Below are positions 209 through 534 of a stretch of 5,973 nucleotides of DNA, one piece after another. Numbering within the stretch: position 1 is the first letter of the stretch; each line of letters opens with the position of its first letter. Origin of the DNA: Candidatus Poribacteria bacterium (GTDB lineage: Bacteria; Poribacteria; DTPJ01; WJIO01); assembly GCA_014730235.1 (NCBI GenBank), contig WJIO01000450.1, positions 1 through 5,973 of the forward strand. Direction: 5' to 3'. The position numbers were made by a program, and so were the translations under genes. The notes beneath the pieces are model-generated. The model made no database searches and had not been told where the DNA came from. It saw only the letters and a list, made by a program, of their open reading frames with translations.

Positions 209-270
209 GCTTGGTAATATATACTATCATGTCAATTTTTTTCAGTCAACAGAAAAAAAATTTACCAAGC
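209..270. repeat. Nested inverted repeat in the leader of the ATPase gene
   Basis: A nine-base arm GCTTGGTAA (209-217) is perfectly complementary to TTACCAAGC (262-270). Inside it, AATTTTTTT (234-242) can pair with AAAAAAATT (254-262), sharing one base with the outer arm. The structure lies upstream of the minus-strand ATPase and overlaps its tentative promoter. It could be an operator, a leader-RNA fold or a remnant of a small repeat. The inner A/T arms could easily be chance in such AT-rich DNA; the outer nine-base match is more convincing. Confidence 0.4.
216..245 (-). promoter_or_regulatory. Tentative promoter for the P-type ATPase gene
   Basis: Read on the minus strand there is a TATATT (-10-like, five of six consensus bases, plus positions 221-216) and, 18 bases upstream, CTGAAA (-35-like, four of six, plus positions 245-240). 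A perfect TTGACA also occurs on this strand at 235-230, but it lies only eight bases from TATATT, and no reasonable -10 sits 16-18 bases downstream of it. The region is so AT-rich that chance matches are expected, so this is a weak call. Confidence 0.25.
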
Positions 271-289
271 ATAAATTTTACATCCCTGT

Positions 290-312
290 GTTATTGCGAG
301 GAACGGAGTAAC
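290..312. repeat. REP-like imperfect palindrome (GCGAGGAACGGAG core)
   Basis: This 23-base hairpin has a stem of GTTATT against AGTAAC (one G-T wobble), a G-G mismatch, then CG against CG, closing on the loop AGGAA. The sequence resembles the dispersed palindromic elements of the form GTCATTGCGAGGAACGAAG...GTGAC that are scattered between genes in many bacterial genomes. Two transitions (GTCATT to GTTATT and its partner GTGAC to GTAAC) are compensatory, so the stem is kept. That resemblance is from memory; copy number in this genome is unknown. Confidence 0.5.
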
Positions 313-396
313 AAATAAAGTTTTTAGTCTGTATCAAAATTTTTGGCTCATCCAGTTTAAGTGTGGAAGTGTAAAAGACATCGTCCAATTAAGAAA

Positions 397-454
397 AAAA
401 TATCCTCCATTTGTCATTCCTGTGTACACAGGAATGACAAATGGAGGATATTTT
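397..454. repeat. Perfect 58-bp gapless palindrome
   Basis: Every base from 397 to 425 is complementary to its mirror base from 454 to 426, giving two 29-base arms with no spacer; the centre is CCTGTGTACACAGG. Symmetry breaks at 396/455 (A against C). The inner part (TTGTCATTCC ... GGAATGACAA) resembles dispersed REP-type elements that begin GTCATTCC and end GGAATGAC. As RNA it would form a very long hairpin. On the plus strand it is followed by TTTT, which is part of the arm. On the minus strand a run of seven T is followed by CTT, so it could end transcripts coming from the right. It sits between divergent genes, where an ordinary end-of-gene terminator is not expected. Confidence 0.9.
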
Positions 455-534
455 CAAATTATTACCATACTCAAACCGGAAGAGCTAAAGTTTTCACGGA
501 CATAAATTTTATGCTTGGTCAGAGGTATTCATAC

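Follow-up and report, generated by a model that had tools for sequence, protein, structure and literature searches.

A perfect 58-bp palindrome between divergent ion-transport genes of a Candidatus Poribacteria bacterium is the hairpin centre of a MITE-like element, very probably perfected by a template switch

In this study, we analysed a stretch of 5,973 nucleotides, referred to throughout as the window. It carries a gene for a cation-transporting P-type ATPase (PF00690), whose N-terminus is encoded on the minus strand at positions 1–147, and one for a Na/Ca-exchanger-family antiporter (PF01699), which starts at 646 on the plus strand; TrkH and then two TldD/PmbA genes come after the antiporter. 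The earlier description of divergent ion-transport genes at this place is thus correct. Among named relatives the antiporter has distant matches only (Methanohalophilus at 43–44%). Between the two genes, the segment 397–454 equals its own reverse complement across 58 of 58 bases, with 29-base arms, no mismatch and no spacer, which bears out the original prediction of a gapless and mismatch-free palindrome. About 4e-14 palindromes of this length are expected per window from base composition, and the longest one found among 60 shuffles of the window was 20 bp. Its length is not extraordinary for this genome, because perfect or near-perfect palindromes of 47–52 bp are common there (sister cores as well as other hairpin copies), one of them being gapless over 52 bp; the instability ascribed earlier to long gapless palindromes therefore carries limited weight at such length. 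An Rfam search of the palindrome returned below-threshold models only, mostly microRNAs that fit any perfect hairpin, and viral contigs searched for the exact arm gave no match.

The palindrome forms the central hairpin of a dispersed, non-autonomous, MITE-like element of roughly 250 bases (family A), of which it marks one copy. This larger element, bounded by terminal inverted repeats (TIRs), had been missed, so that the first description, right about the palindrome, was incomplete. A count of arm copies in the host genome had been proposed, and in the 5.53-Mb draft the 24-base arm proved highly repeated, with 80 matches at up to 3 mismatches, among which two arms are joined arm to arm at 397–454 only. 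Read in its context, the arm makes up the left half of the central portion of a longer element, itself dispersed, that spans CCAAGCATAAATTTTACATCC to GGACATAAATTTTATGCTTGG, with inverted ends reading CCAAGCATAAATTTTAC.../...ATGCTTGG; the best full-length matches align end to end with the window copy at 84–92% identity. The 38 complete copies measure 163–356 bp and none is spanned by an open frame of at least 120 aa. A 9-bp target duplication is exact in 18 of them and agrees at 8 or more of the 9 positions in 23, matches that random pairing of flanks rarely gives. We read the family as MITE-like because of these inverted repeats, the 9-bp duplications and the lack of a 120-aa frame spanning the copies: its members share their TIRs and a target duplication of fixed length, are short and intergenic, carry no transposase gene, and occupy dozens of unrelated intergenic sites. 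This is in agreement with bacterial MITEs, which are short, non-coding, dispersed and intergenic, with TIRs and target duplications (reviewed in PMC10969869). However, no autonomous insertion sequence with the family A ends (CCAAGCATAAATTTTA) was found among the PF01609/DDE transposase loci and the unpaired TIR loci read in the draft genome, and the core is here a variable hairpin common to other element families of the genome. The element was absent from 39 related genomes, one of which gave two weak hairpin matches at one place. Shorter versions of 163–212 bp (L104:952-1114, L103:906-1117 and, on the minus strand, L116) retain the two ends together with a 9-bp duplication that is exact or nearly so, and their core is different or reduced.

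Table 1. Features of the window copy and its surroundings, with the basis for each.
Feature	Position	Strand	Basis
Whole MITE-like element copy (family A)	about 264..519	+	end-to-end alignment with sister copies
Left terminal inverted repeat CCAAGCATAAATTTTACATCCCTG	about 264/265..288	+	inverted pair; 155 genome TIR matches, up to 3 mismatches
Right terminal inverted repeat ...GGACATAAATTTTATGCTTGG	495..518/about 519	-	inverted pair; paired ends in 38 complete copies
58-bp perfect palindrome, hairpin core of the element with putatively homogenised arms	397..454		24/24 arm pairing, unique among 46 cores
Inner GTCATTCCTG-TGTACA-CAGGAATGAC hairpin, member of a dispersed hairpin family	413..438		361 genome sites with these stems
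Smallest putative converted tract, with five private substitutions that each match the complement of the left arm	441..449	+	column counts over 45 sister right arms; alignment
T7 tract on the minus strand, adjoining the extended stem (terminator-like)	394..400	-	terminator pattern in the window copy, none in L010 and L003

The window copy itself has no 9-bp duplication (4 of 9 positions match), and its history must therefore include something more, such as recombination between copies. The usual causes of an absent target duplication are recombination between copies, adjacent deletion and decay (PMC11708052). Flanks of a reciprocal partner, which would demonstrate that the window copy had recombined, were looked for and not found; the weak matches obtained do not fit the flanks of the window copy. 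Matching 9-bp flanks are lacking at window positions 265–518 and likewise in the copies of L001, L004, L029, L040, L049 and L110; mismatched flanks would be expected after genome rearrangement by recombination between copies, or from a draft assembly in which different copies were joined. An empty site was sought in relatives, where the sole same-order genome gave no match to the antiporter, and the closest antiporter (55%, in G016) is flanked by other neighbours.

The hairpin at the heart of the palindrome is not confined to family A. Among 107 examples of the GTCATTCC...GGAATGAC hairpin, 76 lie in or near elements with CCAAGCAT ends, 7 near TGTAATCGTTAAAAAATG ends and 15 near a third conserved context, the sample being biased to CCAAGCAT-ended elements since loci were fetched with the sequence of that element. 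As it is found in all three settings, the hairpin is a core common to at least two kinds of miniature element. The second miniature family, of 127–133 bp with TGTAATCGTTAAAAAATG ends and the same GTCATTCC hairpin, is represented at L094:1421-1547, L199:1432-1558 and L153:2754-2886. A 1.3-kb insertion sequence at L142:1105-2417 (1313 bp between matching ends) encodes a DDE transposase of about 411 aa and is likely to be the autonomous partner of this second family.

Arm pairing sets the window copy apart from its sisters: 24 of 24 positions pair here, against 15–20 in all 45 other sampled cores. The left arm equals the family consensus. The right arm, according to column counts over the 45 sister right arms and to alignment, carries five private substitutions (441, 442, 443, 447 and 449), every one of which is the base complementary to the left arm, and two of these positions are invariant in all 45 other cores. 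The window copy falls within a young cluster in which every other right arm is asymmetric, and its symmetry is derived, since the nearest relatives (96.3% identical to it outside the core) all have asymmetric cores. At the observed divergence of 3.7%, five such changes by independent point mutation have a probability of about 3e-10, and pairing at all 24 positions was never attained in 2 million simulated arms.

The changes thus cluster in a single arm, each of them pairs with the opposite one, and they derive from an imperfect ancestor, as in quasi-palindrome correction. Five complementary changes in an otherwise ordinary copy are most likely the mark left when a quasi-palindrome is corrected by template switching, and we hold with considerable confidence that the best explanation of the locus is a MITE-like copy whose core was perfected by a template switch that copied the left arm over the right. 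The copy would have arrived in the ATPase–antiporter intergenic region carrying a core of the usual, imperfect kind, in which about 19–20 of the 24 arm positions were paired. In replication or repair, synthesis would then have left its template within the hairpin, whether by fold-back or by a move onto the opposite strand, taken the left arm as the model for the right one and returned to the original template, so that AAGCTGAGAAA would have become AAATGGAGGAT in one event. Because one template switch would explain all five changes, neither function nor selection is needed for the symmetric form, and the perfect palindrome looks like the product of an ordinary mutational event and not like a special regulatory site. 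It had been proposed that perfect symmetry implies recent origin, active maintenance or selection; the recent event stands, and selection becomes unnecessary.

The self-complementary centre, TGTGTACACA, which has no spacer, is not explained by a simple fold-back switch and counts to this extent against the template-switch reading. Sister loops of the same length are mostly non-symmetric tetraloops, and the predicted fold of the window core as DNA leaves a four-base loop. Self-complementary GTAC tetraloops are present in other hairpins of the genome (C39 and C351), and palindromic or near-palindromic loops occur at these two sites and at C24. The centre may be a chance self-complementary tetraloop, or else a product of the same switch if this was intermolecular.

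Previous studies of template switching between inverted repeats have reported two outcomes, arm homogenisation and spacer inversion (PMC8604942; PMC8794818). Within the fixed frame of the element, loops of 51, 31 and 10 bases occur in both orientations, in ratios of 10:1, 9:5 and 6:1, respectively, and such two-orientation loops at different sites suggest inversion of the loop in place. Both orientations fit template switching, because such switching inverts spacers. The asymmetric 51-base loop, for example, lies in opposite orientations inside the element hairpins at L022:1501-1607 and L013:1501-1607 (and in similar cores). Clustered changes of one arm to the complement of the other and loops found both ways round recall the published cases of quasi-palindrome correction and spacer inversion (PMC8604942; PMC8794818; PMC7202029). 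In contrast to those cases, the present one concerns a mobile-element core, in a bacterium represented by a draft genome, and it was deduced from paralogous copies and not observed between strains.

A less likely variant of this history would be that the right arm was acquired by gene conversion from a perfect copy, which would lie in the missing part of the draft genome.

It was also proposed originally that the palindrome might act as an operator, a cruciform or a two-way insulator. Selection for bidirectional termination or insulation between the divergent genes, or for a role as operator or cruciform switch, would be consistent with its location between the likely promoters of both genes and with the stability of its stem, the DNA folding energy dropping from -15.6 kcal/mol in the same-length sister core of L010 to -28.8 kcal/mol in the window core. 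The seven T of the minus-strand side, as first pointed out, are present (A7 on the plus strand), and the corrected stem abuts them and scores as terminator-like, unlike the sister copies L010 and L003 in the same frame; of these two, L010 allows a fair comparison, since the loop of L003 is longer than the terminator scan resolves. All aligned family copies have such a run, in most cases seven bases long. A minus-strand terminator-like hairpin may be a side effect of the corrected stem. The candidate ATPase promoters lie on one side of the palindrome and the antiporter promoter on the other, leaving no obvious target between the divergent promoters, and the hairpin would fall outside the ATPase transcript because the ATPase promoter-like sites are on the ATPase side of it. 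The element is found, moreover, at dozens of other, unrelated intergenic sites, and a single mutational event would account for the five arm changes and the symmetric form without selection. We regard a selected regulatory role as improbable.

The suggestion that the inner portion resembles dispersed REP-type elements holds in so far as this portion belongs to a dispersed hairpin family, with exact stems at 361 sites and in frames other than the family A element. Like the REP elements with GTAG or CGTC tags (PMC3733652), these are short, dispersed, intergenic hairpins. They differ from them, however, in being embedded in MITE-like elements, in lacking a GTAG tag at the stem base and in having no REP-associated tyrosine transposase beside the hairpins, as far as could be found. 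Of 32 stem ends checked, 27 have T before GTCATTCC, as does the window copy, and 5 have C, which would give CGTC, so that assignment of the inner hairpin to the GTAG or CGTC class is unsupported by tags and transposase alike. The sole Y1 (IS200-type) transposase of the genome lies in a 3.4-kb locus without such a hairpin or TIR, and the 58-bp unit, not itself a REP, is single copy and set in an element with TIRs and 9-bp duplications. A literature text search for GTCATTCC repeats returned nothing relevant. That the palindrome is a REP family member mobilised by a REP-associated tyrosine transposase is, in our judgement, very improbable.

An assembly fold-back or a chimera between repeats, to which the 451 contigs of the draft, many of them ending inside element copies, and the absent target duplication of the window copy might point, is highly unlikely, because a fold-back would run on into the reverse complement of the left flank, whereas the symmetry extends for just 29 bases, beyond which the ordinary right half of the element resumes, and because no other right arm in the assembly has this form, so that the tract is no long-overlap join of other assembled copies.

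In light of this study, a candidate regulatory site is removed and a well-supported mutational history takes its place. Hairpin template switching has so far been studied mostly in laboratory strains, yeast and primates, and the dozens of paralogous copies in one genome make template switching at hairpins measurable. We would propose, tentatively, that several unrelated miniature elements of this lineage carry one interchangeable hairpin core that is continually rewritten by template switching, through loop inversion, loop replacement and arm homogenisation, so that the element family may form a natural, replicated record of the process, in which a silent hairpin might occasionally become a terminator beside a T tract. 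Operator or terminator calls in this lineage should be made only once these elements have been masked.
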